From positions 1-61,683 of the forward strand of contig PGYT01000011.1 in the NCBI GenBank assembly GCA_002839805.1: 61,683 nt of DNA, read 5' to 3'. Shown piece after piece: positions 10,487 through 61,584 of the stretch. Origin of the DNA: Ignavibacteriae bacterium HGW-Ignavibacteriae-2 (lineage in GTDB: Bacteria; Bacteroidota; Ignavibacteria; Ignavibacteriales; Melioribacteraceae). Position 1 is the stretch's first letter. Each line of letters begins with the position of its first letter. The translations under genes were made by a program, and so were the position numbers. The notes below the pieces were generated by a model. The model saw only the letters and a list, made by a program, of their open reading frames with translations, was not told where the DNA came from and ran no database searches.

Positions 10487-10487
10487 A

Positions 10488-30312: not shown

Positions 30313-30317
30313 ATAAA

Positions 30318-30356
30318 AAGCGTAAGTTATTAATTTATAACTTACGCTTTTTTTTT
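30318..30356. terminator. Bidirectional terminator between tRNA-Ser and the add operon
   Basis: A 13 bp perfect stem, AAGCGTAAGTTAT (30318-30330) with 30337-30349, has a 6-base loop. On the plus strand it is followed by nine T residues, ending tRNA-Ser. On the minus strand it is followed by TTTTTATT, and it lies about 110 bases beyond the adenosine deaminase stop codon, so it can also end the long minus-strand operon. Confidence 0.9.
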
Positions 30357-31481: not shown

Positions 31482-32785
31482 TGACCCATCATAATTGAGG
31501 ATGATGTATAGAAAACTCCTGACAAACTAGCCGTTAATAATGTAGCCATTGTGGCTCCAAGAAGCGCTTTGAATCCTAAACGTGAAATATCTTTGAGACG
31601 TTCCGGAGCGATTGCTGAAAAGCCTCCAACAAAAATAGCCATTGAAGCTACGGAAGCAAAACCGGTTAATGCATATGTTGTTATTACTACACTTCGTGGT
31701 GAAATACTTCCCGACTGCGTAAGTGCCGCCAAATCTTGAAAGGAAACTACTTCTGTAAGAATTAATCTTTCACCAATTATTTTAGATATTTCTACCGCTT
31801 CACTGAACGGTATGCCTATAACTAATGTTACTGGATAAAATAAGTACCCGAGTAAACCCTTCAAAGTCCAATCAATATTTGTTGAAAGTAAGTAATTTAA
31901 TTGTGATCCGAATAAAACAATAATTTTGTCAACAAGTGTCATCAGACCTAAAACTGCAAGTAGAAGAGCAGCAATACCTACAATTATTTTAACACCCGAA
32001 TTGGCGTTATTAATCACAGCTTCAAAAAGACTATCCTCTTTTTCATAGTGGGGTTTAACATGCTTACCCATTGTTTCAGGCGTTTCTGTCTCCGGATATA
32101 ATAGTTTTGAAATGATTATTGCCGCCGGTGCATTCATAATGGAGGCCGAAACAAGATGACCAGCTATTGAAGGGAAATCGGTTTTCAACATCATAATATA
32201 AACGGCAAGCATACTCGATGCTATAGTTGCCATACCTGCCGTAAGTACAGTGCATATCTCCGAGCGTGTCATTGACTTTAGAAACGGTTTTATAACCAAA
32301 CCTGACTCAACTCCAACAAAAATATTTGACGAAGCGCTTAAGGACTCCGCTCCGCTAATCCCCATAAGTTTTGTAAAAAGAAAAGAGAATCCCCTGATAA
32401 TTTTCTGCATAATTCCAAGATAATAAAGTACACCTACCAGCGAAGCGAAGAATATTATAGTTGGAAAAGCCTGAAGTGCTAAAATAAATCCGATGGAAGT
32501 CTCACCTGTTTCAGACACGCTTCCCGGTGAAAGACCAAGTCTTCCGAATAAAAATCTTATTCCAAACGTAGCACTATCTAATACACCATTTACGACATCA
32601 TTAACAAACATAAAAAACTGCGTCCCGATGGGTAAAATAAAAATGAAGGATGCAAAGAGAATTTCAAGAACTACACCCCAGATTATTACACGCCAGTTTA
32701 CAACTTTTCTATTATTCGATAATATCCAGGCCATCAGTAATATTACAATAAAACCAATAACACTTATTACTCTTGAGAATTCCAT
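31478..32785 (-). CDS. Concentrative nucleoside transporter (NupC/CNT family)
   Basis: The protein has 435 residues with about ten membrane segments and the gate/nucleoside-recognition layout of CNT proteins. The conserved SASSNIFVG segment is followed by VESGLVIKP, where characterised CNTs have QTEAPLVVKP. The substrate-binding loop is therefore changed and one residue shorter, though one Glu is kept. It imports nucleosides with H+ or Na+. It lies between ahcY (22-base gap) and add (4-base overlap), which suggests adenosine or inosine as substrate, but the altered loop leaves room for another nucleoside. Confidence 0.88.
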   Translation of the reverse strand: MEFSRVISVIGFIVILLMAWILSNNRKVVNWRVIIWGVVLEILFASFIFILPIGTQFFMFVNDVVNGVLDSATFGIRFLFGRLGLSPGSVSETGETSIGFILALQAFPTIIFFASLVGVLYYLGIMQKIIRGFSFLFTKLMGISGAESLSASSNIFVGVESGLVIKPFLKSMTRSEICTVLTAGMATIASSMLAVYIMMLKTDFPSIAGHLVSASIMNAPAAIIISKLLYPETETPETMGKHVKPHYEKEDSLFEAVINNANSGVKIIVGIAALLLAVLGLMTLVDKIIVLFGSQLNYLLSTNIDWTLKGLLGYLFYPVTLVIGIPFSEAVEISKIIGERLILTEVVSFQDLAALTQSGSISPRSVVITTYALTGFASVASMAIFVGGFSAIAPERLKDISRLGFKALLGATMATLLTASLSGVFYTSSSIMMGQ

Positions 32786-32807: not shown

Positions 32808-34019
32808 TTAGATAATTTCTTCGTCTATTTCTATGCCTTCAGCTTTCAACTTTTCTTCAACAACAATTTTATCTATTTCAGCAGGTACTTTATACAATTT
32901 TTTTTCTGCATTATTTACAAGGAAATAATGAAGACAAGCTAATTGCACAGAAAATGACATATCCATAATATCTACTGGATGGCCAAGTCCACCGGCAATA
33001 TTAATTATACCGCCTCTGGCAAGAATATAAATTATATTGCCATTATTCAAAGTATATTCTTCAACTTCGCTTCGAACAATTTTATAACCCTCAGCATCTT
33101 TTTTTAGTCGTGGAATATCAATTTCATAATCGAAATGACCGGCATTCGAAAGGAACACTCCGTTGTGCATTTTATTTATATGTTCCATTCTAATAACATT
33201 ACTTTCGCCGGTGGCTGTAACAAAAAAGTCTCCTAAAGGAGAAGCCTCAACGATAGGCATAACTTTATAACCATCCATACGAGCTTCAAGAGCTTTCCAT
33301 GGGTCGATTTCGGTGACGATTACTTCCGCACCCAGACCTTGCGCTCTGACTGCGACTCCTCTACCAACCCAACCATAACCGATCACAACAACTGTTTTTC
33401 CGGCAACATTCATGTTAGTCAGTTGAGTTATGGCTGTCCAAGTAGATTGACCGGTACCGTAACGGTTATCAAACAAATGTTTCGACTTAGCATCGTTAAC
33501 CGCTATTGCCGGGTATAGTAATTTGCCCTCAGCTGACAAAGCTTTAAGTCTGTTAACACCGGTTGTAGTTTCCTCACAGATACCTCTAATATTTTCCCCA
33601 TATTCTTTAAATTGGTGAAGGTATTCACAAATATCACCACCATCATCGACTGTAACGTGCATTCGGTTTTTTAATATAGAATGTAAATAAGAATGGTATT
33701 CCTCCTTAGAAGCAGCGTGCTTTGCGTATACGTGCACACCTTGTTTTGCGAGAGCCGCGGCGACTTCATCTTTTGTTGAAAGTGGATTACTGCTGGTTAT
33801 CCATACTTCCGCACCAAGTCTTTTTAGCGCGAGAGCAAGAAACGCAGTCTTAGCTTCAAGATGAATACATAAAGCCACTTTCTTACCTTTGAATACTCCT
33901 TCCTTCTCATATTTATTTGTTAATCCGATTAACACTGGCATTTTATTCGCCACCCAATCAATTAGCTGCTCACCTTTTTGAGCTAGATTGATATCTTTAA
34001 TCAGAAAATTGTCATTCAT
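32808..34019 (-). CDS. ahcY: Adenosylhomocysteinase (short form, divergent)
   Basis: The protein has 403 residues. It hydrolyses S-adenosylhomocysteine to adenosine and homocysteine with a bound NAD. The residues needed are present: His in CIHLEAKTA, VDDGGD, EETTTG, Lys and Asp in NDAKSKHLFDN, NAGHFDYEID and GHP. The NAD-binding loop is GYGWVGRG. Oddities: the usual WDGI motif after GTGQS reads WTAI, the usual GRLVNL segment reads GGIINI, and the protein stops at GIEIDEEII without the LTxEQxxYL end I expect. It follows a TonB receptor (33-base gap) and precedes nupC and add. The link to corrinoids is the methionine/methyl cycle. Confidence 0.88.
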   Translation of the reverse strand: MNDNFLIKDINLAQKGEQLIDWVANKMPVLIGLTNKYEKEGVFKGKKVALCIHLEAKTAFLALALKRLGAEVWITSSNPLSTKDEVAAALAKQGVHVYAKHAASKEEYHSYLHSILKNRMHVTVDDGGDICEYLHQFKEYGENIRGICEETTTGVNRLKALSAEGKLLYPAIAVNDAKSKHLFDNRYGTGQSTWTAITQLTNMNVAGKTVVVIGYGWVGRGVAVRAQGLGAEVIVTEIDPWKALEARMDGYKVMPIVEASPLGDFFVTATGESNVIRMEHINKMHNGVFLSNAGHFDYEIDIPRLKKDAEGYKIVRSEVEEYTLNNGNIIYILARGGIINIAGGLGHPVDIMDMSFSVQLACLHYFLVNNAEKKLYKVPAEIDKIVVEEKLKAEGIEIDEEII

Positions 34020-34052: not shown

Positions 34053-36272
34053 TCAATTAATGATCGAGCTGTTAATGCCAACGGTAAACCTAATTTCCCT
34101 TCCGGGAACAGGAGATCCTTTTGTAATTACAATTTCCTCATCGGCTAAATTGTTCACTTCAAACCTCATTAGCCAGCTTACTCCGAATAATTCTGGTCTA
34201 ACACTTATGTTTGTATTAAACAACGAATAGCTATCCAGTTCAATTGTGTTTTTTGCATCGTGAAATCTTTTTCCGACATAATTATAAATCAGGTTTAATG
34301 CAGCGATTCCATAATTTATATTTATTAGAAAATCGAATTTATCTTTTGGTCTATAAATTAGATATTTGCCGTTAGTCGAGGAATTATTGCCGTCATCTTT
34401 AGCGCTTAATACAGTATAAGAAAACTGAAGTGCTAGTAGATTATTTAGCCCACGCCAATTTATTTTTGATTCAAGCCCCCCAGTTTTTGCGGAAGCAACG
34501 TTAGAAGGCAGCCATTTAAACCCCTGAGTTGAATCACCCGGAGCCCACAAAATAAGGTCTTTTAGGTTACTTGCAAAATATGTTGATTCTATACTCCAAC
34601 TCCCTAAACCTTGGAACTGTACTATGAAACCGAAATCATATGTCGATCCACTTTCTGGTTTTAACTCAGGATTACCTTTGGTCCAACTATCTTCGGGCCA
34701 ATAAAGATCATTATAATTTGGAGCTCTAAACACCCGGCCAAAATTTCCGCGTATTGATCCGCGCCAATCACCCTCATAACCAATTGTAAAACCAACTTTG
34801 GGTGTTATCTGAGAGCCCACATTTTCCTCAGGAAAGTTGTCGAACCTTACTGCTGGAATAATTGTAGTTTTCCAGTAGTGATCAAAGTAATGAGTAAAAT
34901 CATTTTGAAGGAATATACTGTGTATATTTCTGTTGTGGTTCCCTATAAAAGGTGAAACTAAACCATTTAATTTGTACTCGGTTTCCAGTTTATCGTGTCT
35001 AAATTCATATCCGTATGATAAAAGTCCATAATAGCTAAGATCGGTAAAACCAAGAGTTGTAAATCCGATTGAATTATTCAAGTAGTTAAAGTCTTCTTCA
35101 CCCATCCATGATTCGGGATTTAGATAATCATGATCATTAAATATTGTGTAGGCGCCCAAATTTAAAACCGTTGCGCCGAATTTAATACCTTCGTAACTAA
35201 GGCTGTAATGAAAATTTCCCACCTTGTTTCTCGCCGTTGCATTAGGGTAATCCACAGAACCAGGTGAGCCGTTATCGGAATATCTATATCTCACAAAACC
35301 AAATAATCTTGAAGAATTGGAGAATGAATAACCAGCTTTAACAAATACATTATCGGCTTTTGTGTCACCGTTAACCATTTTTACCTTATCGCCATTTTCA
35401 TTAGTGTATTTATAGTCTCCGTCAGATTGAGTACGGTTGTATGAAATAAAATAATCCAAATTATTGATTCCCTGCCCAATTGAGGCATCATAAATACTAG
35501 TTCCGAAGGAACCGATCGTTCCATTGGCTGAATAATCTATTTTATTTTCATGTGCCATTGATTTAGTTATAATGTTGATAACACCACCAACGGCATCAGT
35601 TCCGTATAAAGCCGAGTGACCACCTTTTACAACCTCAATTTTTTCAACTGCATCGAGTGGAATTGAACTTAAATCGACTGATCCGCTTTGGGCGTCATTC
35701 AATCTTTGACCATCAATCAAAACAAGAACTTGTGAGTCTGTTGATCCTCTCAAGGAAATGGTCTGAAGACAACCTAACGCTCCATAACTTTTTACTACTG
35801 CACCACCTATTGATTCAAGCGCTTGTCCAACATTTTTAGCGTTTAGCTGTTGTAGTTTTTTCGTACTCAAAACCTCTGTCGAAACCGGGATTGAAGTGAC
35901 AAGTTGTTCAGAACGCGTGGCAGTTACTACAACTTCCGAGAATCCAAAATGATTCTCCTTCAAATTAAAATTAATATTTATCTCTTCACCCTCGGAAATT
36001 GTGAATGGATGTTCGATAGTTGAATAATTTAACATACTTACAATCAAAATATGTTTGCCGGCAGGGATTTGTGAAATCATATAATTCCCATCTTCGTCCG
36101 AGGCGCAACCTGTGTGAGTTCCCTTCAAATAAATATTCGCGCCTATTATAATTTCATTCGTAGCTCCATCTTTAAGAACCCCTTTCACTATTCCGCCATG
36201 TTGTCCAAATAATGGCTGAAATGATAAAAGAAATAGAAAAATACTGACGATATTTTTTTGTAGGATTTTCAC
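34053..36272 (-). CDS. TonB-dependent receptor with carboxypeptidase-D-like N-terminal domain, BtuB-like
   Basis: The protein has 739 residues. A signal peptide (about 1-23, ending FGQHGG) is followed by a carboxypeptidase-D regulatory-like domain (about 25-110), a plug domain (about 115-240, with LVLIDGQRLNDAQSGSVDL and YGTDAVGGVINIITK) and a 22-strand barrel to the end. The plug resembles the cobalamin receptor BtuB. It is in the outer membrane and powered by TonB. It is the second of two related receptors in a row; 142 bp with a long hairpin separate them. Cobalamin or another corrinoid is inferred from plug similarity and neighbours. Confidence 0.85.
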   Translation of the reverse strand: MKILQKNIVSIFLFLLSFQPLFGQHGGIVKGVLKDGATNEIIIGANIYLKGTHTGCASDEDGNYMISQIPAGKHILIVSMLNYSTIEHPFTISEGEEININFNLKENHFGFSEVVVTATRSEQLVTSIPVSTEVLSTKKLQQLNAKNVGQALESIGGAVVKSYGALGCLQTISLRGSTDSQVLVLIDGQRLNDAQSGSVDLSSIPLDAVEKIEVVKGGHSALYGTDAVGGVINIITKSMAHENKIDYSANGTIGSFGTSIYDASIGQGINNLDYFISYNRTQSDGDYKYTNENGDKVKMVNGDTKADNVFVKAGYSFSNSSRLFGFVRYRYSDNGSPGSVDYPNATARNKVGNFHYSLSYEGIKFGATVLNLGAYTIFNDHDYLNPESWMGEEDFNYLNNSIGFTTLGFTDLSYYGLLSYGYEFRHDKLETEYKLNGLVSPFIGNHNRNIHSIFLQNDFTHYFDHYWKTTIIPAVRFDNFPEENVGSQITPKVGFTIGYEGDWRGSIRGNFGRVFRAPNYNDLYWPEDSWTKGNPELKPESGSTYDFGFIVQFQGLGSWSIESTYFASNLKDLILWAPGDSTQGFKWLPSNVASAKTGGLESKINWRGLNNLLALQFSYTVLSAKDDGNNSSTNGKYLIYRPKDKFDFLININYGIAALNLIYNYVGKRFHDAKNTIELDSYSLFNTNISVRPELFGVSWLMRFEVNNLADEEIVITKGSPVPGREIRFTVGINSSIIN

Positions 36273-36414: not shown

Positions 36415-38292
36415 TTAATGTAAACTTAACCCAATTGTCGCTCTAATTTCTCTTCCTGGCATCGGGTAACCATCACTTAGGCGATAACTTTTATCAAATA
36501 CATTATTCAAGTCTAATCTGAACATCCAGTTCAATTGAAACAATTTCGGTTTTACACTAACATTAGCGTTTACAAGGCTCAAGTCAGGCAATGATTCTGA
36601 GTTATCGACATTAACATATCTTTTACTCATAAATTGATAGTTTGCGTTGATTTCATACATTCCTATAACATAACCTGCATTTACATCCAATTTATTGAAT
36701 GGGCGGTATATCAATAATTTTCCGTCGTTTTCTTCACCACTAGCATCCTTGGCATCCATGTATGTATGGTTAATATCTAATTTCATAGACTCGTCAAAGA
36801 ATTTAAAACCAATGTATGATTCTAAACCGGAAGTTTTAGATTTTTCAACATTTGTTGGTGTCCATTTAAAATCAGCTCTTGGAGCCCAAATAATCTGGTC
36901 GTCAATTGAACTATTGAAATAATTAATATTAATCTGAGCATTATTTAAGAATGGAAGCTGGAATCCAAAACCTACTTCATAACTTGTCCCTTTTTCAGGT
37001 TTTAGATCAGGATTACCTACTGTATAGGCATCTTCCGGCCAGTAAAGGTCATTAAAAGTTGGAGCGCGGTATGATTTACTAACATGCATATTAAGATTAA
37101 ACGCATATGCTCCGCCATTAGCAAACATCAAACTAACTTTTGGCGAGAGTACTTTTTCAAAATCATCAGGTGCGTCGTATCGCAAAGCGGGAACTACTGA
37201 TATAGAATTAAATAAGAAATTTATATCTTTTATTCCTAATGTGGCAGCAAGATGACCACTGTGAGTTTCGCGACTCTTTTCTCCTAAAGAACTGCTATTT
37301 GCTTCATCATGTCTGAAAACATAACCATAATCCAAAGAAATTAAATCACTAAGCGGATTATTTTGTGCCAGCTCAACTCCATATGCTTTATTTTTATGAT
37401 CGCTGGAAGTCGGACCGCCCCATGCATCGGGATCATCATATCTTGTTCTGAAATTATGGAAATATGTATTAGCCGAAAAGTCTGCTTTGCCAAAAACTTC
37501 TTTTTGGGCATAATTTAAATTAAAGAACATGTTGTCAATTCTTAAATATGCGTTTGGAGTTATAATAGGCCAGTTAGCTAAACCCTGCACACTTCCGGGT
37601 GTACCACTTTCAGATTGTGTATACTGTGTCGAAAATGTTAAATTACCTTTTTCTGATGTGTTATAGCCCAGTTTAAACATCACATCATTAGATTTTGTAT
37701 AATTGTTTTCACGGGTGTTTTTTGTTCCGTCTATTTCTTCATATTTAAAATCCCCGTCACTATCTGTTCTCTTGTAAGATAGATAATAATTTAAATCATT
37801 AATCACATTGCTTGTATATAGATTCAAGAACTTTTGATTGAATGATCCGTATGTTGCTCTTAGCCCAGCATCCATTTTTGAATCTTCTGTAGCTTTTTTT
37901 GTAATGAAGTTAACAACGCCACCAACAGCATCTGCACCATAACGAGCCGAGTTGCCTCCTCTTAAAACCTCCACTTTTTCAATTGCGTCAATTGGTATAG
38001 TGGTTACGTCAAAATCTCCACTTTGAGCATTATTCATTCTCTGGCCGTCAATTAAAATTAAAACCTTGTTGGCCGATGCTTCCCTAATATTAATAGCCCC
38101 CTCACGAATAAAAATACCGGGAACTGTTTTTAATGCGTCTGCCATATCTTCAGCATTGGTCTTGCTGGATAAGTTTTCAGCAGATATTACATCTGCGCTT
38201 TTTTCTTTCTTTTTCTCTTCTTGTGAGAAGATATTGCCGGTGTAAGCTACAAAAAGAATAAAAATTACAAAGTAGACATTCTTTTTCAACAT
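36415..38292 (-). CDS. TonB-dependent receptor, BtuB-like
   Basis: The protein has 625 residues, close to BtuB (about 600). A signal peptide (about 1-24, ending NIFSQ) leads directly into the plug (LILIDGQRMNNAQSGDFDV, VEVLRGGNSARYGADAVGG), without the extra N-terminal domain of its neighbour. The outer-membrane barrel fills the rest. An excellent GGAGAGG ribosome site precedes the ATG. It is read after the PHP protein (57-base gap). The plug wording matches corrinoid receptors best, and the operon holds a BtuF-like protein, so corrinoid uptake is the likely task. Confidence 0.85.
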   Translation of the reverse strand: MLKKNVYFVIFILFVAYTGNIFSQEEKKKEKSADVISAENLSSKTNAEDMADALKTVPGIFIREGAINIREASANKVLILIDGQRMNNAQSGDFDVTTIPIDAIEKVEVLRGGNSARYGADAVGGVVNFITKKATEDSKMDAGLRATYGSFNQKFLNLYTSNVINDLNYYLSYKRTDSDGDFKYEEIDGTKNTRENNYTKSNDVMFKLGYNTSEKGNLTFSTQYTQSESGTPGSVQGLANWPIITPNAYLRIDNMFFNLNYAQKEVFGKADFSANTYFHNFRTRYDDPDAWGGPTSSDHKNKAYGVELAQNNPLSDLISLDYGYVFRHDEANSSSLGEKSRETHSGHLAATLGIKDINFLFNSISVVPALRYDAPDDFEKVLSPKVSLMFANGGAYAFNLNMHVSKSYRAPTFNDLYWPEDAYTVGNPDLKPEKGTSYEVGFGFQLPFLNNAQININYFNSSIDDQIIWAPRADFKWTPTNVEKSKTSGLESYIGFKFFDESMKLDINHTYMDAKDASGEENDGKLLIYRPFNKLDVNAGYVIGMYEINANYQFMSKRYVNVDNSESLPDLSLVNANVSVKPKLFQLNWMFRLDLNNVFDKSYRLSDGYPMPGREIRATIGLSLH

Positions 38293-38349: not shown

Positions 38350-40002
38350 TTATAATGATTCTTCCAATAAATTGAATATATACTTACTGTTTTTCCAGTT
38401 TGAAGGTCCATCCGGAATAGTAATATTCGGGTGTGACTTAAATTTATTCCATAACTTCACATCATTCGGTTCAACCCACTCCCGCACAGGCCAATCACCG
38501 AAAGGGGGCACATCCACAAAGATAGGATTAGTGATTGCAAACATTGGCCATTCTCCAAAAACCTCAACCACAATCCAGCCGTCTTTATCAATCTCAATAG
38601 CTACAGAATCATGAAATGTCATAGTACTTGCTGTTGCAATTGATTTTACTACTTCTCCATTATAAATAATCCTTATTGCACCCTCGTTTTTAAGAAGCGG
38701 ATAATTTGATAATACTTCAATAGAAACTTTTACTTCATTATCTATTGATTCCAATATTTCACCCGGTTTTTTATGATTGACTTCAGCAAGAAGCAGCGGG
38801 CCAAAACCTGATGTAAGAAACAAATTGCTCTGCATTAATGCGCTTTTGATTTCATTTTCGTTAAGGTTATTTATGTATGCATATGATCGAGGATTGCCAA
38901 CGGTGGTATTCCAAAAATATTCTCCTTTAGGGTAAGAGTTAACCCCTGTATTATCATGATTATCGGAGCCTGCAAGACCCGGTATTTTAATTCCGCAGTT
39001 CAAAAAAGAAAACCAACTTTGTACTGCCCACGTATTTCGGTTTGTAAGATTCGGGTCGAATGTGGAAGTAGTAAGAGAGTGAGGAGGTTCACAATTCCAA
39101 ATCTCAATGGCATCAAAGTTTTTAACTTCTCCCCAAGATTTGAATCGTCCCGACCAGTCCCAATTCTGATATGGATGATTAATAACAAGCATTCCCTTTT
39201 GCTCATGAGTCTTGTTTATAATATTTTGTACGTCGTTATGATCATTAAAAATGGCTCTTGCCCAAATATTTGGATTATTAGGATCTGCGCCGTTTAATGT
39301 ATCGATAAATATTTGGTTCATATGTCCATAACCATTTTCAATAGAGCTAAAAGAAGCTTCGGAAGTGATCTCATTACCGATTATAGTAATAAAATCTTTA
39401 CTTTTACAAGAAGACCATTCTTTCGCTCCTGCAATCGTATTATGATCTGTTAGAATGCCCCATGACAAGCCTACGCCTTTTAATGCATTAGCAATTTCTG
39501 TAGGTGTTTGTCGTCCATCACTAAAGACACTGTGCAGATGAGTGTCCCCACCATACCACCCTAACTTCTGAAGATTATACAAATGTTTAAGTGTCGCATT
39601 ATTTTCAAGTCCGCCAAATTCATTTTCTAAAACAATAATTTTCTTAATTATCAATTCCCATTCTGGACCCTTTGAGATGATTAAAAGCAAAGTATCTGCG
39701 GGAACTTTTATAGAATAGAAACCATCGATAGTGGAGTAAGTCATACCTATCAAATTATCTGTTCTTCCCTTAACTTCATCGGATGTGAAACTTGATACAA
39801 CCTCCGTAAAGCTGTAATACCACACCTGTACTTGAGCAATTAATGGATCGCCTGCTTCATCTACAATTTTCCCGTGTAAAAGCTGTGCTGATCCAGGTGG
39901 AACATTTATCTTAGCTTTTTGCGCGTATAAAAAATATGATGTACAAAAAAAGACTAATGCAATAAAAAAACTGTTAAAAGATTTGTGTCCATATATTTTC
40001 AT
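38350..40002 (-). CDS. Exported PHP-domain metallohydrolase (CehA/McbA-like)
   Basis: The protein has 550 residues. A signal peptide (about 1-28, ending LYAQK) is followed by a carboxypeptidase-regulatory-like beta domain (about 40-110) and a PHP metal-hydrolase domain. Its metal motifs are GDTHLHSVFSDG (H155, H157), TDHNT (D186, H187), GNEIT, NHP and GSDNHD. A C-terminal beta region follows. PHP proteins are mostly phosphoesterases; CehA/McbA relatives also cleave carbamates and amides. It acts in the periplasm or outside. It sits 4 bases after the ADP-ribosylglycohydrolase gene and before the receptors, so its substrate is probably the imported ligand or a fragment of it. The exact reaction is unknown. 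Confidence 0.8.
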   Translation of the reverse strand: MKIYGHKSFNSFFIALVFFCTSYFLYAQKAKINVPPGSAQLLHGKIVDEAGDPLIAQVQVWYYSFTEVVSSFTSDEVKGRTDNLIGMTYSTIDGFYSIKVPADTLLLIISKGPEWELIIKKIIVLENEFGGLENNATLKHLYNLQKLGWYGGDTHLHSVFSDGRQTPTEIANALKGVGLSWGILTDHNTIAGAKEWSSCKSKDFITIIGNEITSEASFSSIENGYGHMNQIFIDTLNGADPNNPNIWARAIFNDHNDVQNIINKTHEQKGMLVINHPYQNWDWSGRFKSWGEVKNFDAIEIWNCEPPHSLTTSTFDPNLTNRNTWAVQSWFSFLNCGIKIPGLAGSDNHDNTGVNSYPKGEYFWNTTVGNPRSYAYINNLNENEIKSALMQSNLFLTSGFGPLLLAEVNHKKPGEILESIDNEVKVSIEVLSNYPLLKNEGAIRIIYNGEVVKSIATASTMTFHDSVAIEIDKDGWIVVEVFGEWPMFAITNPIFVDVPPFGDWPVREWVEPNDVKLWNKFKSHPNITIPDGPSNWKNSKYIFNLLEESL

Positions 40003-40006: not shown

Positions 40007-41041
40007 TTACTCCATTTTTTTTGCTGTTATCTTCCCTGTAAATTCATGTGCGTATTTTTTTAGGTTTAGTTTGTTAACTTCTTCCAGTTTATCAATTATC
40101 TCCTGAGGGAAAGCATCTGACCCGGCGTAGGCACCTGCAATGCTTCCGGCAATGGCGCCAATTGTATCGCAATCGCCTCCCATATTAGCCGCACCCATAA
40201 TTGTTTTCATCGGATCCCCTTTGTAGTAAACAAATAAAGCAAGTGCAGTTGGAGTTGCTTCCGACATCACGACACCCGCACCAATATAATTGTACAGGTC
40301 ACTTAAGAATTCTTCTTCACTTTTTCCAGATCTCGCAATTTCCAATGCCCATTTTGCACGGTGTGATATTGAGGCGCTATACCATTGTGTTCCGAGAGCC
40401 ATACCTTTATTCACGCCGTAATAATATGCATCAATTACTCCATCTATATCTTCTCCAGCCATACCAGCTGCTACCGCGCAGGCAACCGAAGCAGCTCCTG
40501 AGATTGCGATGTTAGTATTATGAGTTGGAATACAAACTTCATGAACATCTTTAATTACCGCATCGTAATCACCCGGATTCACAATTCCCACGGGAGAAAT
40601 TCGCATTGCGGCTCCGTTTGTGTCACCCATTGTACCGGCCTGGTCAATAGGAACTCCATCTTCAATTCTTTTTAATGATCTAATCGAACTAGGTCCTAGT
40701 AGTGTGTTAGTGAAACCATCCATAGCTTTAGCCCATGCAAGAAGACGTTTGGCTACACTTTCTTTAGAAAACTTACCTTCTTCCAGATAAATATCGGCAA
40801 GCACCAATGTTTGTTGAGTATCGTCTGTTATTTCACCCGCTTTCATGCCAAAGTGAATTATGTGACCATCCGGAGCAGGAAGAAAAGATGTAATCTTTTT
40901 CTTAAATGTATTTTTAATTGCTTCCGGGCTCATCATTGAAGATGGCATACCAAGCGCGTCTCCGGTTGCCACTCCTAATAAAGTTCCATATGCTTTTTTA
41001 AATATTTGTTCTTCTGTTAAATTTGTTTTTTGATTATTCAT
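40007..41041 (-). CDS. ADP-ribosylglycohydrolase (DraG/ARH) family protein
   Basis: The protein has 344 residues. The family metal-site motifs are intact: GDALGMP (27-33), TDDTQ (72-76), GDTNGAAMR, a THNT segment and GGDCDTIGAIAG (288-299). Known members cut alpha-linked ADP-ribose from proteins or ADP-ribosyl metabolites with two Mg2+. It has no signal peptide. Its ATG overlaps the EcfT stop by one base, deep inside an operon for uptake of a ribosylated compound, so it probably acts on a small alpha-riboside or its phosphate rather than on a protein. The alpha-N-glycosidic bond of alpha-ribazole would suit the known stereochemistry of the family; this is inference. Confidence 0.85.
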   Translation of the reverse strand: MNNQKTNLTEEQIFKKAYGTLLGVATGDALGMPSSMMSPEAIKNTFKKKITSFLPAPDGHIIHFGMKAGEITDDTQQTLVLADIYLEEGKFSKESVAKRLLAWAKAMDGFTNTLLGPSSIRSLKRIEDGVPIDQAGTMGDTNGAAMRISPVGIVNPGDYDAVIKDVHEVCIPTHNTNIAISGAASVACAVAAGMAGEDIDGVIDAYYYGVNKGMALGTQWYSASISHRAKWALEIARSGKSEEEFLSDLYNYIGAGVVMSEATPTALALFVYYKGDPMKTIMGAANMGGDCDTIGAIAGSIAGAYAGSDAFPQEIIDKLEEVNKLNLKKYAHEFTGKITAKKME

Positions 41042-41850
41042 TATAGAACTCCAACATTTTTATTTCTCGCCCAAATGGCTGAAACTAGTATTATCATTAT
41101 TATTATTGATATAACGTAATCTTTCGTAGTCATCTTTATTTCTTCTAAATCTGTAGATGTTTTCATTGCGCCAAATCCGCGATTCAACATAGCCACCGCC
41201 AAATTATCCGACATACGCAGAGAGTTGACGATCATAGGAATAAGTATTGGGATAAATGATTTAATTCTTTTAATCATCCCACCCGTTCCTATTTCTGCAC
41301 CGCGTGTTATTTGTGCTTCCTGTATCATCTCCGCTTTTTTCTGCATTGTAGGTATGAAACGAATTCCAGTTGTAATTACAAATGCTAATTGATATGGCAT
41401 TTTCATTTTTTTGAAGAGTTGAAGGATATCTTCAATTTGTGTAGTAAACGTAATAACAGAGGAAGCTAAAACCATAGTTAGAATTCTCATTACAAGGGTT
41501 AGTCCCAATTGAAATCCTCCAACAGTAAATGGAGCACCCATATCCGGAAGGAGATAAAACAAAATATTTCTATTGAATTCTGATTCGAAAGCAGAGGGAG
41601 AATATGTAAAGCCGGTAATTACCAGCATAATAATAAAAATCGGGATTAATGGTTTTATAACGAGGTTCAATCTTTTTATAGGAGCCTTAGCCCAAATGAG
41701 CATCAGTAAACTTATCAGAACCAGAAAAAAATTAATTACAGGCGATAAAAAAATAAACGCAATTATAGTAATAGCCAAAAAACCAAAAAGTTTGGTCCTA
41801 ACATCTAACTTGTGTAATTGTGTGTTTATTGGGTAATATTCAATTAACAA
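41041..41850 (-). CDS. ECF transporter T component (EcfT/CbiQ family)
   Basis: The protein has 269 residues with about six hydrophobic segments. The cytoplasmic coupling helices carry the family's A-R-G-type signature (AQITRGAEIG and AVAMLNRGFGAMK). It links the ATPase pair to the membrane substrate component. Its start is 9 bases from the ATPase stop and its stop touches the next gene, so it is fully operonic. Together with the fused ATPase and the 175-residue S component, it makes a complete ECF importer. Confidence 0.9.
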   Translation of the reverse strand: MLIEYYPINTQLHKLDVRTKLFGFLAITIIAFIFLSPVINFFLVLISLLMLIWAKAPIKRLNLVIKPLIPIFIIMLVITGFTYSPSAFESEFNRNILFYLLPDMGAPFTVGGFQLGLTLVMRILTMVLASSVITFTTQIEDILQLFKKMKMPYQLAFVITTGIRFIPTMQKKAEMIQEAQITRGAEIGTGGMIKRIKSFIPILIPMIVNSLRMSDNLAVAMLNRGFGAMKTSTDLEEIKMTTKDYVISIIIMIILVSAIWARNKNVGVL

Positions 41851-41859: not shown

Positions 41860-43590
41860 TTAATTCAATTTTGATTTAATATTTTCAACTAGTTCGTTAA
41901 CTGTTAAAAGGTTATCCATAATTCCAAATGGTTTAAGATTTTGTGCAACTAGCACAGATTGTGGTGGTGTAATGAAATATTTATTTAAGATATCTGTTTG
42001 TTTAAAAATGTTCGCAGGCGCATCATCAAGTACAACTTGTCCGTCGGCAAAAACTATCACACGATCGGCATAATCAGCTGCCAATCGCATGTTGTGCGTT
42101 ATAGTAATTATCGTATGACCTTTAGCATGTAATTCTTTTAAGAGACTCATCATTTTTAGTGCGCCTTCCCAATCCTGCCCTGTTGTTGGTTCGTCAATAA
42201 CTAAAATTTGAGGGGTCATTGCAAGAATAGATGATACGGCTAGTTTCTGCCTCTCACCTTTACCAAGTGAAAATGGATGACGTTCTTCATAATTTTCCAT
42301 TCCAACAAACCTGAGAACATTTTTTACTCGCTTTTCTCTTTCTTCTTCATCGAACCCATATGCCTTTAAACCATATTCTATTTCTTCTTTTACGGATGCT
42401 GCAAAAATCTGATGATCGGGATTTTGAAAAACATAACCGACAGTTTTGCTCAACTCTGCAGTATTTATATTGAAGGCATCTCTGCCATTAATAAATATTT
42501 TTCCATTAGTAGGTCTAAGCAGACCGTTTAGATGTTTTGAGAAAGTTGTTTTACCGGCACCGTTTTTTCCTATTAGGGCCACGAATTCGCCCATATGGAT
42601 TTTTATGTTTATATTTTTTAGAACACTCGACTTTTTATCGTAAGAATAACAAAGATTATTTGTCTCTATTATTATTGGAGAATTCGAATTATAATTAGTT
42701 GCTTTATTATCAATTGGGGTACTAGAAAGTTTTAGTTTCTTTGTAAGGTCTGCAACACATTCAGATACCGTTAGATATAAGGTTTCCTTATCACCATTTG
42801 AAAGTAGTTTCCCTATCTCAGTTATTTCGGGCGGACAAATTCCCAAATTTTTAGTTAGTGTAATATCGGTGAATAATTTTTCCGGTTTCCCTTCCCAAAC
42901 AATTTTACCATTTTCCATAACCATTAAACGATCAACATAATGAAGCATCTCTTCACTATCATGGCCCGAAATAATAATTGTAACGTCTCTTTTTTGTCTC
43001 AGTTTATTTAATAGCTCATAAATTTCAAGTTTTCCTTTCGGATCGAGTTCGGAAGTAGGTTCATCCAAAACTAATATTTCGGGCTCCATTGCCAGAACAC
43101 CTGCAATTGCAACTCTTTGCTTTTCACCTCCAGAAAGTCCTGTGGTCATTCTACTTTCATACCCCTTTAAGCCGACCGCTTCCAGAGAGAATGTCACTGC
43201 ATTTCTAATTTTATCTCTATCAAATGCTAAGTTAGAAGGTCCAAATGCGACATCCTTATCCACTGTTAGGCTAAAAATTTGCGTTTCCGCATCCTGCAGC
43301 ACCATACCTATAAACCGAGAAAGTGTTTGAACCCTATATCGCTGAGTATTCATAGTGTTGGAAATAACGTTTCCTTTGAATTCACCCTCATAAAAATGAG
43401 GAATCAAACCATTGAGCAGCATTAGCAGTGAAGTTTTTCCAGAACCGGTTCTTCCCATCACACCAATAATCTCACCTTTTTTGATGTTTATCTTAATATT
43501 AGTAAGAGTGTCCGCAGTGCTGTCGGCATATCGAAATTTTTCGACATCTCCAAATACCGATCCTCTTTCTAGTTCTGGCCTATTATTCAT
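41860..43590 (-). CDS. ECF transporter double ATPase (A and A' fused)
   Basis: The protein has 576 residues with two complete ABC ATPase domains in one chain. The first has Walker A GRTGSGKT (46-53), signature LSGGEKQR and Walker B ILVLDEPTSELD. The second has Walker A GKNGAGKTT, Walker B ILVIDEPTTGQD and a non-standard signature region SLGKGERQK in place of LSGGQ. It powers the ECF importer at the inner face of the membrane. Its start overlaps the kinase gene stop by 8 bases, pointing to translational coupling. Confidence 0.93.
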   Translation of the reverse strand: MNNRPELERGSVFGDVEKFRYADSTADTLTNIKINIKKGEIIGVMGRTGSGKTSLLMLLNGLIPHFYEGEFKGNVISNTMNTQRYRVQTLSRFIGMVLQDAETQIFSLTVDKDVAFGPSNLAFDRDKIRNAVTFSLEAVGLKGYESRMTTGLSGGEKQRVAIAGVLAMEPEILVLDEPTSELDPKGKLEIYELLNKLRQKRDVTIIISGHDSEEMLHYVDRLMVMENGKIVWEGKPEKLFTDITLTKNLGICPPEITEIGKLLSNGDKETLYLTVSECVADLTKKLKLSSTPIDNKATNYNSNSPIIIETNNLCYSYDKKSSVLKNINIKIHMGEFVALIGKNGAGKTTFSKHLNGLLRPTNGKIFINGRDAFNINTAELSKTVGYVFQNPDHQIFAASVKEEIEYGLKAYGFDEEEREKRVKNVLRFVGMENYEERHPFSLGKGERQKLAVSSILAMTPQILVIDEPTTGQDWEGALKMMSLLKELHAKGHTIITITHNMRLAADYADRVIVFADGQVVLDDAPANIFKQTDILNKYFITPPQSVLVAQNLKPFGIMDNLLTVNELVENIKSKLN

Positions 43591-44404
43591 CAGCTATTAA
43601 ATGTCCAATAATTGTAAATGGTCTGTCTATTTTATTCTCTAATTCTTTCACTTTGATGGGAGGAAGTGAAATAAGAAAACAAGTTGTGGGTCCACCCGAT
43701 TTAAGAGTGTCAATTTCTAGATTCTTTTTTATTACTGATTTTAATCCAGCCGAGAGTCCCAGTTGATCAAATTCATATTTAATACCTTTAGATCCAACCG
43801 GAAGAATATCATTTATATAATCCAATTTACGGACTAGGCGGATCGTTTCAAGATTTGCGATTTCCTTATCGTTAAAATCGACTTTATCAGCGGGTGCTGA
43901 TTTCGGGAAACCTATACAAATTACCAAATCGCCGGATTCTGATTTACCGGGTCTGAAATCTTCTTTTTTAACTAGTCCAATAACAACTACACCCAAACCT
44001 GTTTGAATAGTAACAACATTATCTTCGGTACTTCCCGTAACAACGAAATCTTTTTTCATACCGGCTTGAGCAGCTTCATCTCTAATACCTTCAATAATTT
44101 CTTTTCCTGTAGGATCCATCTCAACGGCTAGTACATCTACAATTAAAACAGGAATAGCGCCACAAGCTAACATTTCCATAAGAGGCACTCTTGCCGCAAA
44201 ACGTCCTAGTGAGTAACCCGAGCATTGAACAGTATCTTTTTCTTTTGGTCCAATTCCGCCATCTGAGTCACATGATACAATCATCCAAAAATCTTCCGTT
44301 AACTCCGTAACTAGTAAATCTCTCGCTGAACGAACATTTAAAAAATCAGAGTCGGGATTTTCCTTCATTTGTTTATATTTTTTTAATAGTTCGTCGTTAA
44401 GCAT
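43583..44404 (-). CDS. cblS: AIR-synthase-fold kinase, probably alpha-ribazole kinase
   Basis: The protein has 273 residues of the PurM/AIR-synthase superfamily. Conserved-looking parts are CDSDGGIGPKEKD (45-57), LGRFAARVPLMEMLACGA, EMDPTGKEIIEGI and VTGSTEDNVVT. These match my memory of the CblS family, which phosphorylates alpha-ribazole in Listeria and Geobacillus so that it can join the corrinoid ring. The next gene is a CblT-like S component, and the operon has BtuF- and BtuB-like members, which supports this. Other enzymes of the fold (ThiL, SelD, HypE) are alternatives; ThiL is the closest competitor. It starts 4 bases after the S-component stop. Confidence 0.68.
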   Translation of the reverse strand: MLNDELLKKYKQMKENPDSDFLNVRSARDLLVTELTEDFWMIVSCDSDGGIGPKEKDTVQCSGYSLGRFAARVPLMEMLACGAIPVLIVDVLAVEMDPTGKEIIEGIRDEAAQAGMKKDFVVTGSTEDNVVTIQTGLGVVVIGLVKKEDFRPGKSESGDLVICIGFPKSAPADKVDFNDKEIANLETIRLVRKLDYINDILPVGSKGIKYEFDQLGLSAGLKSVIKKNLEIDTLKSGGPTTCFLISLPPIKVKELENKIDRPFTIIGHLIADE

Positions 44405-44408: not shown

Positions 44409-44936
44409 TTAAATTATTTTACTTTTGTTAATAATTAGGTAAGCTGTAACCGCAACAAAAATGTTAATTGCCGAGCCAATTGTAAGTGGTAAAATTAAGG
44501 CTGCCATAAGTCCAAAGCCGCCGACTGGCACGACAAGTAATGAAGAAACTGGTCCGTTAAGGAAAACTCCAACGATAATCCCTGCCCACAGATGAATTTT
44601 CTTAGCTATTACAGCAAATAGTGAAACCCATGCAGCCATTTGAAAAGCGATAAAAATATGGAGGGGAAAACTTAAGGGAAATCCAGTTGTCAAGGCTGTC
44701 AATATATGTCCGAGAATTGCCACAATAGATCCCTCCCGCCAACCAAATGCAATCGCGGAAAAATATGCAATTGATGCATCGAGGGCTACAGTGCCAGTGG
44801 GACTAGGCACTTTTATCATTGAGCCAACCGCACTGATAGCTATAAAAATAGACATGCGTGCAATTCTTTTGGGGGTCCAAAATTTTTTTTTATCATCAAT
44901 ATTTATCTCTTCTGCAGGTATTATAATTAATGACAT
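44409..44936 (-). CDS. cblT: ECF transporter S component, probably CblT (alpha-ribazole/DMB)
   Basis: The protein has 175 residues with about five membrane helices. The segment PSPTGTVALDASIAYFSAIA is followed by GHILTALTTGFPLSFPLHI, as I recall for CblT-type S components, which bring in alpha-ribazole or dimethylbenzimidazole. A cytoplasmic N-terminus of about 25 polar residues precedes the first helix; a start at the later Met (MSIFIAIS) is less likely because an AGAGAG ribosome site precedes the first. The kinase gene follows 4 bases later and the ECF energy module after that, so a full importer is encoded here. Confidence 0.7.
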   Translation of the reverse strand: MSLIIIPAEEINIDDKKKFWTPKRIARMSIFIAISAVGSMIKVPSPTGTVALDASIAYFSAIAFGWREGSIVAILGHILTALTTGFPLSFPLHIFIAFQMAAWVSLFAVIAKKIHLWAGIIVGVFLNGPVSSLLVVPVGGFGLMAALILPLTIGSAINIFVAVTAYLIINKSKII

Positions 44937-44951: not shown

Positions 44952-45710
44952 TCAATGTTTCTTATTGATACCGATACTCACATATTTTTCCGGTCCGATA
45001 TAAAATTCGCATTTATCTCCTGGTAAGAATGAGCGAGCAAATTCTATTATTTCATTATTTTTAGACAATGTTTTTCGAGTGACCAGAAAAAGAGCCGAAC
45101 CCTTTTTTACCTTTAACAGATCAGCTTCGTATTGGTCGGCACTTACGCAGGAAATTGTTTCGCTGAAGTGACTGAAATTATTGCCGAATTTATCTTTCAA
45201 TATATTTATTAATGATTCCTTTTCTAGATCATGTTTTAATAAACTTTTACAAAAATGTTTAGGAATATATGAGGTTTGTAATGATATGGGTTGATCTACA
45301 AGCAATCGTAGTCTTTGAATTCTGAAAAGATCTATGTTGTGTTTAAGATTCAAATACTTAAGAGCTTCTTTTGATTCTTTAATTTCTTCTGTAAAAATTA
45401 CTTTTGTATTTAAATTACCGTTAAGTTCTCTAAATCTAGCCGAGAAACTAAAAAGTTCAGATAGGCCGTCAAAAACTTTTTTTTCAGCAACAAATGTTCC
45501 CTTGCCTTGTTCACGGTAAAGAATGCCTTCCGTCACAAGACTGGCTATTGCTTGCTTCGCTGTGTTTCTACTGATACTTAGCTTTTCACAGAGTTCATTT
45601 TCAGATGGTATCCTTTCACCCGATTTATATTTACCTATATCAATTTCTTCTTTAAGAATTTCTTTTAGTTGATAGTAAAGAGGTAAAACGCTTTTTTTAT
45701 CGATTTCCAT
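44952..45710 (-). CDS. GntR-family (HutC/UTRA type) transcription regulator
   Basis: The protein has 252 residues. The N-terminal winged helix-turn-helix is typical (YKSGERIPSENELCEKLSIS, RNTAKQAIASLVTEGILYREQGKGTFV, about 27-75). The UTRA effector domain fills about 90-245. Such proteins repress a nearby operon until a small molecule binds the UTRA domain. It is the second gene of the operon, 30 bases after the BtuF-like gene, and a strong palindrome lies at the operon promoter (46820-46847). Autorepression released by a corrinoid fragment or riboside is the simplest reading. Confidence 0.9.
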   Translation of the reverse strand: MEIDKKSVLPLYYQLKEILKEEIDIGKYKSGERIPSENELCEKLSISRNTAKQAIASLVTEGILYREQGKGTFVAEKKVFDGLSELFSFSARFRELNGNLNTKVIFTEEIKESKEALKYLNLKHNIDLFRIQRLRLLVDQPISLQTSYIPKHFCKSLLKHDLEKESLINILKDKFGNNFSHFSETISCVSADQYEADLLKVKKGSALFLVTRKTLSKNNEIIEFARSFLPGDKCEFYIGPEKYVSIGINKKH

Positions 45711-45740: not shown

Positions 45741-46763
45741 TTAATTACCAACCACCTCATATTGTTGTAAAAAACAAATATTCATTGAATTAACAAAGGG
45801 GACAAAAAAGGATAATAAAGTTTCCATATTGTCTGGGACTTTATCCAGTTTTAATAGTTCATAGTCGCCATCGGCATGTATGGCTTTACCGAAAAGATCC
45901 GCAGCTACGGAAATTTGGGGTCCTGCCTGTTTAGTTTTAGCCGAGTCGATATATCTTACTTTACCGTTTATAACCGCTTTTATATTTTTTGCACCTGGCC
46001 TATTTGCTACTTCATTTGGTGTAGTTGTTCCATATCCGGCCTTTTTTCCCTCGAAATATGGTCCATTTGCATTTGCCCATAGAGGTAAAAGGATTACATC
46101 GGGATTCGCTTTTACAACCTCTTCCCATGTAACACTCGGCGCAACACCGGGTCTGTCTGAAAATATAGGATCTCCGCCCGCTATTTTAATAAGTTCTGTC
46201 ATGAAATCATCTTGACCCGGGACACACTTATAAAAGTAATTTATCTCGTAATAGACCGAGACGCGTGGTAAATCTTTATATTTAGACTCCACTTGTATCA
46301 ATTCATCTTTTATGTTGGCTACAAGTTCGGTTGCATTTGATTTTTTGTTTATAGCTTCTCCGAGTTTGATTATGTCACCATATACTTCATCCAGAGAATT
46401 AAGATTCATGTGTATAACTTTTATACCATGTTCAATAAAATAGTCCCGCAATTTTTCTTGTATTCCACTACTTGTTAAAACCAAATCCGGTTTCAATTCC
46501 ATAATTCTTGATTTATTAATGTCTACAAACCCGCCAATCACTTCAAGTTTACCATTTTCAACAAGTCTAGGTATTGAGTCAGGGAAAATACAATAGCGTG
46601 TCACACCAACAAGATTGTCTGTAGCGCCAAGTACCGCCACAGTATTAGTCCAATTTGGTGTGCAGGATACTATTCGAAGGTGCTCTTGTGCGAATTGTGA
46701 GGGGGACGAAAATAAGACTAGGAAAATGATAAAAATAAATTTTTTCTTAATATTGATATTCAT
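45741..46763 (-). CDS. BtuF-like periplasmic corrinoid-binding protein
   Basis: The protein has 340 residues. A signal peptide (about 1-26, ending SQFAQE) is followed by the helical-backbone binding-protein fold of the BtuF/FhuD class: RIVSCTPNWTNTVAVLGATD, LVGVTRYC, a VIGGFVDIN segment and LKPDLVL. A GGAG ribosome site precedes the ATG. It should bind cobalamin or another corrinoid in the periplasm. It is the first gene of the operon, yet no BtuC/BtuD permease genes are nearby; the inner-membrane importer in this operon is an ECF type, which normally needs no binding protein. Confidence 0.85.
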   Translation of the reverse strand: MNINIKKKFIFIIFLVLFSSPSQFAQEHLRIVSCTPNWTNTVAVLGATDNLVGVTRYCIFPDSIPRLVENGKLEVIGGFVDINKSRIMELKPDLVLTSSGIQEKLRDYFIEHGIKVIHMNLNSLDEVYGDIIKLGEAINKKSNATELVANIKDELIQVESKYKDLPRVSVYYEINYFYKCVPGQDDFMTELIKIAGGDPIFSDRPGVAPSVTWEEVVKANPDVILLPLWANANGPYFEGKKAGYGTTTPNEVANRPGAKNIKAVINGKVRYIDSAKTKQAGPQISVAADLFGKAIHADGDYELLKLDKVPDNMETLLSFFVPFVNSMNICFLQQYEVVGN

Positions 46764-46819: not shown

Positions 46820-46847
46820 TTGTTTGGTTGTACCAACAACCCAACAA
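46820..46847 (-). promoter_or_regulatory. Palindromic operator, candidate GntR binding site
   Basis: The plus-strand arms TTGTTTGGTTGT (46820-46831) and ACAACCCAACAA (46836-46847) match as an inverted repeat at 11 of 12 positions with a 4-base spacer. Inside it a second palindrome TTGGT-TGT-ACCAA (46824-46836) resembles GntR/HutC cores with GT and AC half-sites. It starts at the last base of the -10 box and covers the expected transcription start of the BtuF-first operon, the classical place for a repressor. I found no second copy in front of other genes in the window. Confidence 0.7.
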
Positions 46848-46876
46848 ATATAACAGTTAATTTATCTTATTGTCAA
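46847..46876 (-). promoter_or_regulatory. Sigma70-like promoter of the corrinoid-salvage operon
   Basis: Read on the minus strand, TTGACA (46871-46876) is followed after 18 bases by TATATT (46847-46852). Transcription would begin near 46840, inside the palindrome, about 75 bases before the ATG of the BtuF-like gene. The boxes are close to the general bacterial consensus. Confidence 0.7.
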
Positions 46877-48331: not shown

Positions 48332-48392
48332 TTTGTTTCTCCCTTGAATTCTTTACATGTAATTTTGCTTCATTTTTTAAATTAGTATTATT

Positions 48393-50861: not shown

Positions 50862-50930
50862 TATTTCTCCAATTAATAAACATTTTTTTAGGTAATATGA
50901 AGTTTTTTATTCCATCGGAATGTGACTTTT

Positions 50931-52853: not shown

Positions 52854-52905
52854 ATAAATCCTTTATATCTGAACTTGATAATTATTCTGATAAATATGGA
52901 ATTTG

Positions 52906-54951: not shown

Positions 54952-55009
54952 TGTTCTCTCTAAATTGTTCATATTATTTTATAATGATACCATCATGATT
55001 ATTAAACAC

Positions 55010-55807: not shown

Positions 55808-55842
55808 TTAGAGACCTTTTCTATTATAAATTTATCAGTTTT

Positions 55843-56970: not shown

Positions 56971-56995
56971 AAATAAATGTCCAATACAATGGTCA

Positions 56996-58318: not shown

Positions 58319-58328
58319 AATAATTCTG

Positions 58329-59795: not shown

Positions 59796-59903
59796 ATTTC
59801 TCCTTTAATTTTTAGATAATAGATATCCCACTAAACCATCGTTAATTATATTTACTACCCATGTATATTATATATTATGCTCGCCGCACTAATTTGTTTA
59901 GTA

Positions 59904-61559: not shown

Positions 61560-61584
61560 AGTAATATAATTTTTAGTATAAATT

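Follow-up and report, generated by a model that had tools for sequence, protein, structure and literature searches.

An ARH-family protein paired with a CblS-like kinase in an Ignavibacteriae operon, a candidate alpha-riboside hydrolase

Proteins of the ARH family are mostly annotated as ADP-ribosyl-protein hydrolases. Alpha-ribazole is the best-known natural alpha-riboside, and the CblT/CblS system for its uptake and phosphorylation in Firmicutes was reportedly set out by Gray and Escalante-Semerena in 2010. The same system appears in PMC6461909 and PMC5643483. For both ARH1 and ARH3, selectivity for alpha-1'' linkages has been described (PMC7050489), and in Escherichia coli the ARH protein YegU belongs to the yegTUV operon, which has a GntR regulator, YegW/GgaR, and whose own functions are given as not known (PMC10819704). 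Here we analyse an ARH gene of Ignavibacteriae bacterium HGW-Ignavibacteriae-2 (the host), carried on a stretch of 61,683 nucleotides (contig PGYT01000011.1; the window), that lies in an operon with genes for an importer and a kinase resembling CblT and CblS.

Our best reading is that this operon is catabolic or serves disposal, and that the ARH is neither a protein de-ADP-ribosylase nor part of cobamide assembly. We put at about even the chance that it hydrolyses a small-molecule alpha-riboside, or the phosphate of one, in a catabolic role, with the substrate inferred; that the substrate is alpha-ribazole in particular is a tentative suggestion, well short of even. A set of ARH proteins travelling with a CblS-like kinase, in hosts most of which have no cobamide assembly, would give the family a metabolic role and, if our reading is right, would explain a possible fate for free alpha-ribazole. 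Our literature search found no description of an ARH acting on alpha-ribazole or another alpha-riboside, or of an enzyme that breaks the glycosidic bond of ribazole, although subscription papers were mostly outside its coverage and this is weak evidence of absence.

The ARH-AIRS pair and its operon

The ARH gene is the seventh in a run of 13 genes on one strand, from 46763 to 30462, with intergenic gaps of -8 to 142 bases. The order is binding protein, GntR regulator, energy-coupling factor (ECF) S component, AIRS-fold kinase-like protein (AIRS), fused ATPases EcfAA', EcfT, ARH, CehA/McbA-type hydrolase, two TonB-dependent receptors, S-adenosylhomocysteine hydrolase (SAHase), CNT transporter and adenosine deaminase (ADA), and the run reads as a single operon governed by its own GntR regulator. 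The start of the ARH gene overlaps the stop of the EcfT gene by one base, confirming the contact between the two that the first-pass annotation of this DNA had pointed out.

That annotation had staked its proposal on an association of ARH with CblS/CblT-like genes in other genomes, and such an association is present: AIRS lies next to ARH at 15 loci, spread over 13 genomes (eight loci in the host's class, four in the class of genome G301, and L081, L012 and L013). Among 40 loci encoding ARH relatives, taken from named genomes, AIRS occurs in the same locus in all nine whose ARH is 41-66% identical to the window enzyme and in none of the 31 at 27-39% identity, several of which are short or cut by contig ends. 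Within the host's class the AIRS profile matched seven of 294 genomes, at eight loci, and ARH adjoins AIRS at all eight, as a cut gene at L011. The G301 class (Acidimicrobiia-type) has AIRS in four of 247 genomes, at five loci, with ARH beside four of them (L014, L048, L020 and L080); at L116 (G534) AIRS stands without ARH, and that genome has no PF03747 match. A divergent AIRS lies back to back with ARH in Neobittarella massiliensis (G330, locus L081). In Bacilli (the class of G313) AIRS is found in 23 of 200 genomes; ARH was present in none of the 18 neighbourhoods examined from these 23 matches, and a PF03747 protein over the cut-off occurs anywhere in the genome in three of the 23, one being G345.

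We rejected a single origin of the AIRS-linked ARH or of its AIRS partner, as linkage changes four times on each tree. At least two of the changes on the ARH tree are forced by well-supported branches, and a single clade for ARH-linked AIRS is rejected with a p-AU of 1.8e-6, long branches (L081, L088) being in play. The ARH of L044, which has an in-frame stop, was excluded from alignments and trees, as were L018, L019, L023, L025, L029, L030, L034, L036 and L037; L041 and L043 are absent from alignment A4 and present in the tree, and every excluded locus remains in the count of 40. Several handles refer to the same contig (L009 and G078, L010 and G172, L015 and G915, L011 and G848) or genome (G915 and G300, G848 and G296).

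Some of these loci are unusual in themselves. The stop of L044 lies inside the matched ARH stretch at 10001-11017. At L011 (9902-11683; G848/G296) the ARH is cut after GGDCDT, and its reading frame continues through a CehA-type protein that is internally shortened; EcfAA' is split in two frames as well. This would be either decay or an assembly error. L081 (8878-16593) encodes an AIRS of 440 aa, which seems to be made up of one AIRS unit and part of a second. This AIRS lies back to back with a pair of ARHs, the second without the TDD motif, and the locus has in addition a PfkB kinase and a third ARH. In L013 (8-2023) a second ARH, 40% identical to that of the window and from another branch, stands with a PfkB kinase in divergent orientation to the AIRS-ARH operon, as though two modules for ribosides had come together.

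The first-pass annotation also read an alpha-ribazole importer and kinase into the operon. The ECF S component (PF12822), AIRS, EcfAA' and EcfT are all present. The reading is a reasonable lead, one clade away from the presumed known enzymes. In ten Bacilli loci (L090-L099) AIRS belongs to a cobamide cluster with CbiB, CobU and CobS, and an S component stands beside it in nine; the cluster of L095 was also checked with Pfam. The window S component is 31-40% identical to those beside canonical CblS in nine of the ten clusters and 38% identical to that of one more ECFS-AIRS pair, L089, while the window AIRS is 26-34% identical to the AIRS of the clusters. The AIRS tree has two deep clades, split at 100/100, one with the ten cob-cluster AIRS and the other with the window's and others. 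From its context we take the Bacilli clade to hold the characterised CblS. The window's own clade counts 24 AIRS, of which 15 are linked to ARH, three (L084-L086) lie beside cobamide genes and six have neither ARH nor cobamide genes; it is the sister clade of canonical CblS, so the window AIRS falls outside the cobamide-operon AIRS that have an S component. The predicted AIRS structure is nearest to SelD, HypE, ThiL and PurM (Z 17-22) and has the AIRS-superfamily fold; these matches to a model would fit an ATP-using enzyme and no more.

The three Bacilli loci within the window's AIRS clade, L084 (8621-9418), L085 (8507-9304) and L086 (8202-8999), place AIRS beside btuF-like and cobamide genes with no S component match, and L085 and L086 also contain CobT. 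Their AIRS may be a second type of CblS. In L082, L083 and L087, from three Bacilli genomes with similar gene maps, AIRS has no cobamide gene or ARH nearby, and from its sequence the L082 frame overlaps the end of a methyltransferase-like gene.

What surrounds the pair changes from locus to locus. The full Bacteroidota-type operon has the ECF importer; L012 reads GntR-AIRS-ARH-TonB-TonB, with no ECF seen in its 9.1 kb. L020 has the order GntR, ARH, Bmp binding protein, Nup-type ATPase, two permeases and AIRS, and L080 is similar (PF02608 in both), a nucleoside-type ABC importer there replacing ECF. In L114 and L115 a calcineurin-like phosphoesterase (PF00149), its N-terminus hydrophobic by eye, occupies the slot of the CehA/PHP protein, and L012 starts with the last part of a protein related to it (37.9% identity over 87 residues, E 7e-12). 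That unrelated phosphoesterases replace one another at the same position suggests that opening of a phosphate ester takes place outside the cytoplasm.

A possible pathway follows. A TonB receptor would carry a compound resembling a corrinoid or a nucleotide to the periplasm, where the putatively secreted phosphoesterase would set free an alpha-riboside, namely the alpha-ribazole or alpha-adenosine moiety of the nucleotide loop of a cobamide; alternatively, free alpha-ribazole would be taken up directly from the surroundings. The ECF transporter, or the nucleoside ABC importer in other loci, would import the alpha-riboside, the AIRS kinase would make its 5'-phosphate, and the two-metal ARH would then cut the alpha-N-glycosidic bond, leaving ribose 5-phosphate and the free base. 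The second candidate for the substrate is alpha-adenosine derived from pseudocobamides, which would suit the adenosine genes. We also considered, as a rather improbable elaboration, an operon that dismantles cobamides, in which B12-type receptors and the binding protein capture them, the phosphoesterase opens the nucleotide loop, ECF and the CblS-like kinase take in the alpha-riboside, the ARH splits this into its base and ribose 5-phosphate, and ADA and the nucleoside transporter handle the adenosyl group of the upper ligand or adenine as a lower ligand. If true, this would to our knowledge be the first genetically defined breakdown of the vitamin B12 nucleotide loop to its base, and its ARH the first of the family with demonstrated nucleosidase activity. 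Outside cells, free alpha-ribazole (or a compound with the same mass) has been reported, as has its phosphate (sources including PMC5643483 and PMC9296465), and free alpha-ribazole is counted among the exometabolites of N. maritimus and roseobacters (sources including PMC5643483). Alkaline hydrolysis of B12 yields alpha-ribazole (PMC9296465).

The adenosine genes invite a different explanation, in which salvage of adenosine-type nucleosides or adenosyl compounds is the purpose of the operon, the pathway has SAHase, CNT and ADA at its centre, and the ARH cuts a by-product such as the alpha-anomer of adenosine or of NAD or nicotinamide mononucleotide. The three genes occur in the run of the window and of L009, L010, L011, L015 and L115, and the Bmp/Nup importers of the Acidimicrobiia-type loci are of nucleoside type. 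However, L012 and the Acidimicrobiia-type loci have AIRS-ARH without adenosine-gene matches in the stretches seen, and the ECF-S/AIRS pair is akin to CblT/CblS. We consider this explanation improbable, if a serious contender.

Fold and active site of the ARH

The assignment to the DraG/ARH family made on first inspection is secure. The open reading frame has an ATG start with GGAG seven bases upstream, and PF03747 spans the entire protein (E 2.9e-68; 231 bits against a gathering score of 26.2). The AlphaFold2 model is a confident all-helical ARH fold, with a predicted local distance difference test score (pLDDT) of 95.6, and matches MJ1187 (1T5J) best, at Z 39.7 and 2.1 A over 301 residues with 27% identity; further matches are ARH3 (Z ~37), DraG (Z ~35) and ARH1 (Z 30), all on the DALI scale. 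The host genome has two PF03747 matches in all, that of the window included. The second protein is shorter, at 258 aa (L002 1417-2193; G000:C46), and no AIRS-like frame was seen in its 3.3 kb.

Alignment to DraG and MJ1187 showed that the metal ligands T72-D73-D74 and D290/D292/T293 are kept. In alignment A4, of 29 rows, T72-D73-D74-T75, H174, D292 and T293 are invariant and D290 nearly so, and three close relatives of the window ARH show no change in the metal ligands or in the NG and TH motifs. The first-pass statement that all metal motifs are intact was nevertheless too strong, since the flap glutamate (ARH3 Glu41; DraG Glu28) is replaced by Ser35. Serine is found at this position in all ten members of the window's Bacteroidota-type clade. 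It is Glu in L014, L020 and L048 and Gln in L080, and among the other ARHs compared it is Glu in 17 of 19, the exceptions being L031 (Ser) and L043 (Gln); for this count the three Acidimicrobiia-type rows, L080, the three L081 rows and L045-L047 were kept apart.

In ARH3 the flap glutamate coordinates metal II (PMC7050489, PMC8319183) and is essential, the E41A variant being inactive (PMC8319183). In DraG a change of Glu28 has a minor effect and Asp97 is crucial (PMC7050489), an aspartate that is also missing from ARH1 and ARH3 (PMC8319183, PMC7050489). A crystal structure of ARH3 with alpha-NAD+ exists, and the authors of PMC8319183 argue that an N-glycosidic bond such as that of alpha-NAD+ can be cut without a first attack assisted by Glu41, so loss of the flap glutamate need not abolish activity on an alpha-N-riboside.

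DraG Asp97 aligns with Leu114 of the window ARH, and the adenine-binding Glu121 of the DraG ExxA motif aligns with Met138, or after a one-residue shift with Thr137, likewise not a glutamate. Because the flap glutamate is a serine and both DraG Asp97 and the adenine motif are missing, DraG- or ARH3-like action on ADP-ribosylated protein appears unlikely. An ordinary ADP-ribosyl-acceptor hydrolase of the DraG/ARH1/ARH3 kind, acting on protein or ADP-ribose derivatives and present in the operon by chance, would have just the fold and the retained metal ligands described above. Yet the protein scores far below the cut-offs of the DraG equivalog TIGR02662 (87.7 against 337 bits) and of the ADP-ribosylarginine hydrolase Tri1 equivalog NF041672 (76.3 against 490), the pair is conserved across 15 loci, and ADP-ribosyltransferase models matched none of the 13 operon genes, the rest of the genome not having been searched. 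We regard such a role as unlikely. A role in defence was rejected, PADLOC giving no match for four operon proteins.

The same residues raise the possibility that the ARH is catalytically weak or inactive and acts as a ligand sensor or a structural partner of the ECF complex. The serine common to the Bacteroidota-type clade, the lack of an aspartate at the DraG Asp97 position and the cut ARH of L011, which runs into the shortened CehA frame, would all agree with this. Against it stand the metal ligands and NG and TH motifs unchanged in the close relatives, the TDDT, H174, D292 and T293 invariant in all 29 rows, and the Acidimicrobiia-type clade, which keeps Glu with the same kinase partner. We think an inactive ARH distinctly unlikely.

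Asp140 lies in the loop preceding NGAAMR, at which adenine is bound in DraG. It is present in 14 of 15 AIRS-linked ARHs (the exception is L081) and in none of the 24 others in the tree set, making it a candidate specificity residue of the AIRS-linked ARHs. On a tree built without the columns of this loop, Asp140 changes three times and AIRS linkage four times. We rejected Asp140 as proof of the substrate, as there are only three independent pairs and it may correspond to DraG Asp123 in a HMMER alignment, and so is not foreign to ARHs.

Cobamide assembly genes and the weight of the proposal

CobS, CobU and CobT are all missing from the host genome, which is 99.9% complete, so alpha-ribazole phosphate cannot enter cobamide there by the known route, and we rejected salvage of alpha-ribazole for cobamide assembly in the host. 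Across the AIRS+ARH genomes CobS is absent from 11 of 13, the exceptions being G301 and G330, and CobT from all ten searched; CobU is convincing among ten only in G301. Weak CobU matches in G297, G298, G300 and G078 were not counted, their frames being 452-472 aa and their scores 0.4 bits over the cut-off in G297 and below it in the others; our guess is that they are RadA-like. Where AIRS has no adjoining ARH, CobS was found in all seven genomes tested (six Bacilli and G534), one of which, G345, carries an ARH at another place in its genome, and the six Bacilli, tested out of the 23 with AIRS, all have both CobU and CobS.

The first-pass proposal of action on alpha-ribosides rather than ADP-ribosylated protein thus survives in part. 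Linkage to a CblT/CblS-like pair or to AIRS alone, and the loss of the DraG adenine residues, would fit it better, but its cobamide role, release of dimethylbenzimidazole for cobamide building or discard of wrong lower ligands, is not supported, given the missing host genes and the 18 Bacilli neighbourhoods that have no ARH beside AIRS. Lower-ligand salvage or proofreading by the ARH is favoured by the CblT/CblS-like pair, by nearby B12-type receptors (below model cut-offs) and by G301 and G330, which carry both the pair and CobS. Against it stand these absences and the same 18 neighbourhoods, ten of which are canonical CblS in cob clusters; it is largely refuted for the host and very improbable.

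Several observations weigh against the catabolic alpha-riboside proposal as well. CobS is also absent from all 11 tested relatives in the host's family that have no AIRS, so its absence does not track the operon within the family and the contrast between genomes is confounded by lineage; G301 and G330 have the AIRS-ARH pair together with CobS; and G807 is 85% complete, with no completeness values for genomes reached through loci. The operon is patchy, given the seven genomes of 294 with AIRS in the class and the lack of AIRS in the same-genus relative G051. The alpha-riboside specificity of the AIRS is not assured, because it lies outside the canonical CblS clade. Loss of the flap glutamate could mean weak or no activity, the window ARH having neither this residue nor Asp97; the Acidimicrobiia-type ARHs retain it, so serine is not required for pairing with AIRS, and L031, without AIRS, has serine. 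The Asp140 correlation, from its three independent pairs, is too thin for significance and fails in L081. SAHase, the CNT transporter and ADA are no less indicative of adenosine-like compounds than of ribazole. Finally, alpha-ribazole at the 8 pM reported outside cells in one culture is a poor carbon source.

Operon features and comparison with described systems

Table 1. Features of the operon in the window, listed from its upstream end, with the ARH at its place in the gene order.
Feature	Position	Strand	Basis
Promoter-like TTGACA/TATATT	46847..46876	-	11/12 matches, best in region; operator-like site 6 bases further on
Operator-like site, perfect inverted arms GTTGT-N4-ACAAC	46827..46840	-	Conserved ahead of same operon in relatives
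BtuF/TroA-like binding protein, first gene	45741..46763	-	PF01497; NF038402 over cut-off
GntR/UTRA regulator, putative repressor	44952..45710	-	PF00392, PF07702
ECF transporter S component, CblT-like	44409..44936	-	PF12822 over cut-off
AIRS-fold kinase-like protein, sister clade of canonical CblS	43583..44404	-	PF00586; tree; predicted structure
Fused ECF ATPases EcfA-EcfA'	41860..43590	-	TIGR04520/TIGR04521 over cut-off, two stretches
EcfT transmembrane component	41041..41850	-	PF02361
ARH protein, 344 aa	40007..41041	-	PF03747; proposed alpha-riboside(-5'-phosphate) hydrolase
CehA/McbA-type PHP metallohydrolase, putatively secreted	38350..40002	-	NF038032, 181.6 bits vs cut-off 80; hydrophobic N-terminus by eye
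TonB-dependent receptor	36415..38292	-	B12 and haem receptor models both match, below cut-offs
TonB-dependent receptor, N-terminal carboxypeptidase-regulatory-like domain	34053..36272	-	Best NCBIfam model TonB-B12, below cut-off
S-adenosylhomocysteine hydrolase	32808..34019	-	NF004005, 553.7 bits vs cut-off 275
CNT-type Na+/nucleoside transporter	31478..32785	-	PF07662, PF01773, PF07670
Adenosine deaminase, last gene	30462..31481	-	TIGR01430, 309 bits vs cut-off 216.6
Terminator-like hairpin after adenosine deaminase	30315..30352	. (listed on +)	Near-chance number of such sites in region

Promoter- and terminator-like sites occur in this region at about the number expected by chance, and our calls rest on their quality and position. 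The operator-like 14-mer reads GTTGT-TGGT-ACAAC on the coding strand; we had at first taken the operator as TTGGTACCAA, which was wrong, the correct register being that of the inverted arms. In the window 0.3 sites are expected at up to two mismatches and one was found with none, and the host genome holds a single exact copy. The same 14-mer, in either direction, lies just ahead of the likely first-gene start in G172, G078, G926, G915 and L013, and with one mismatch in G848. The GntR protein would repress the operon until its ligand is present.

A wider regulon was rejected, a scan of six genomes at up to one mismatch giving 24 sites against 13 for the backwards pattern. Six of the 24 are exact, five of them ahead of the operon and one (L128, G926) by a peptidase-like gene; of the remaining one-mismatch sites seven are in G172. 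Apart from the five ahead of the operon, the two sites whose neighbours were read, L128 and L129 (one mismatch, host genome), suggested no link. Control by a riboswitch was likewise rejected, the RNA search of the window at gathering thresholds having returned two tRNAs and no cobalamin riboswitch. The next run on the same strand (47255-61595), as read from translations, is an apparent amino-sugar cluster with hexosaminidase, glucosamine-6-phosphate deaminase, NagA and sodium symporters.

Other ARHs have metabolic neighbours too. From sequence reading, those of L022 and L031 stand beside components of a phosphotransferase system and that of L043 has for neighbours a PfkB-like frame and an ABC importer of the spermidine type, so ARHs appear to occur in many catabolic settings. 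By analogy, yegTUV and L016, a locus of the yegTUV type with a PF02133 permease, PfkB and a GntR match, hint at a wider metabolic role of the family.

Compared with the ARH/DraG family (MJ1187 1T5J, ARH3 and RruDraG), the window protein shares the full-length fold and the dinuclear metal ligands but differs in its flap serine and in having neither DraG Asp97 nor the ExxA adenine motif, and its setting differs in the importer and kinase of the operon and in the lack of an ADP-ribosyltransferase inside it. With CblT/CblS of Firmicutes the operon has in common adjacent genes for a homologous ECF S component and a homologous AIRS kinase; it differs in that the AIRS belongs to a sister clade, an ARH is added and the cobamide assembly genes are missing. 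In its combination of importer, ARH, kinase and GntR/UTRA regulator it is like E. coli yegTUV, where YegU stands with a PfkB kinase, a purine/nucleoside permease and YegW/GgaR, whereas the kinase of the window is of another family and its ARH forms a separate branch with an Asp140 that the YegU type does not have.

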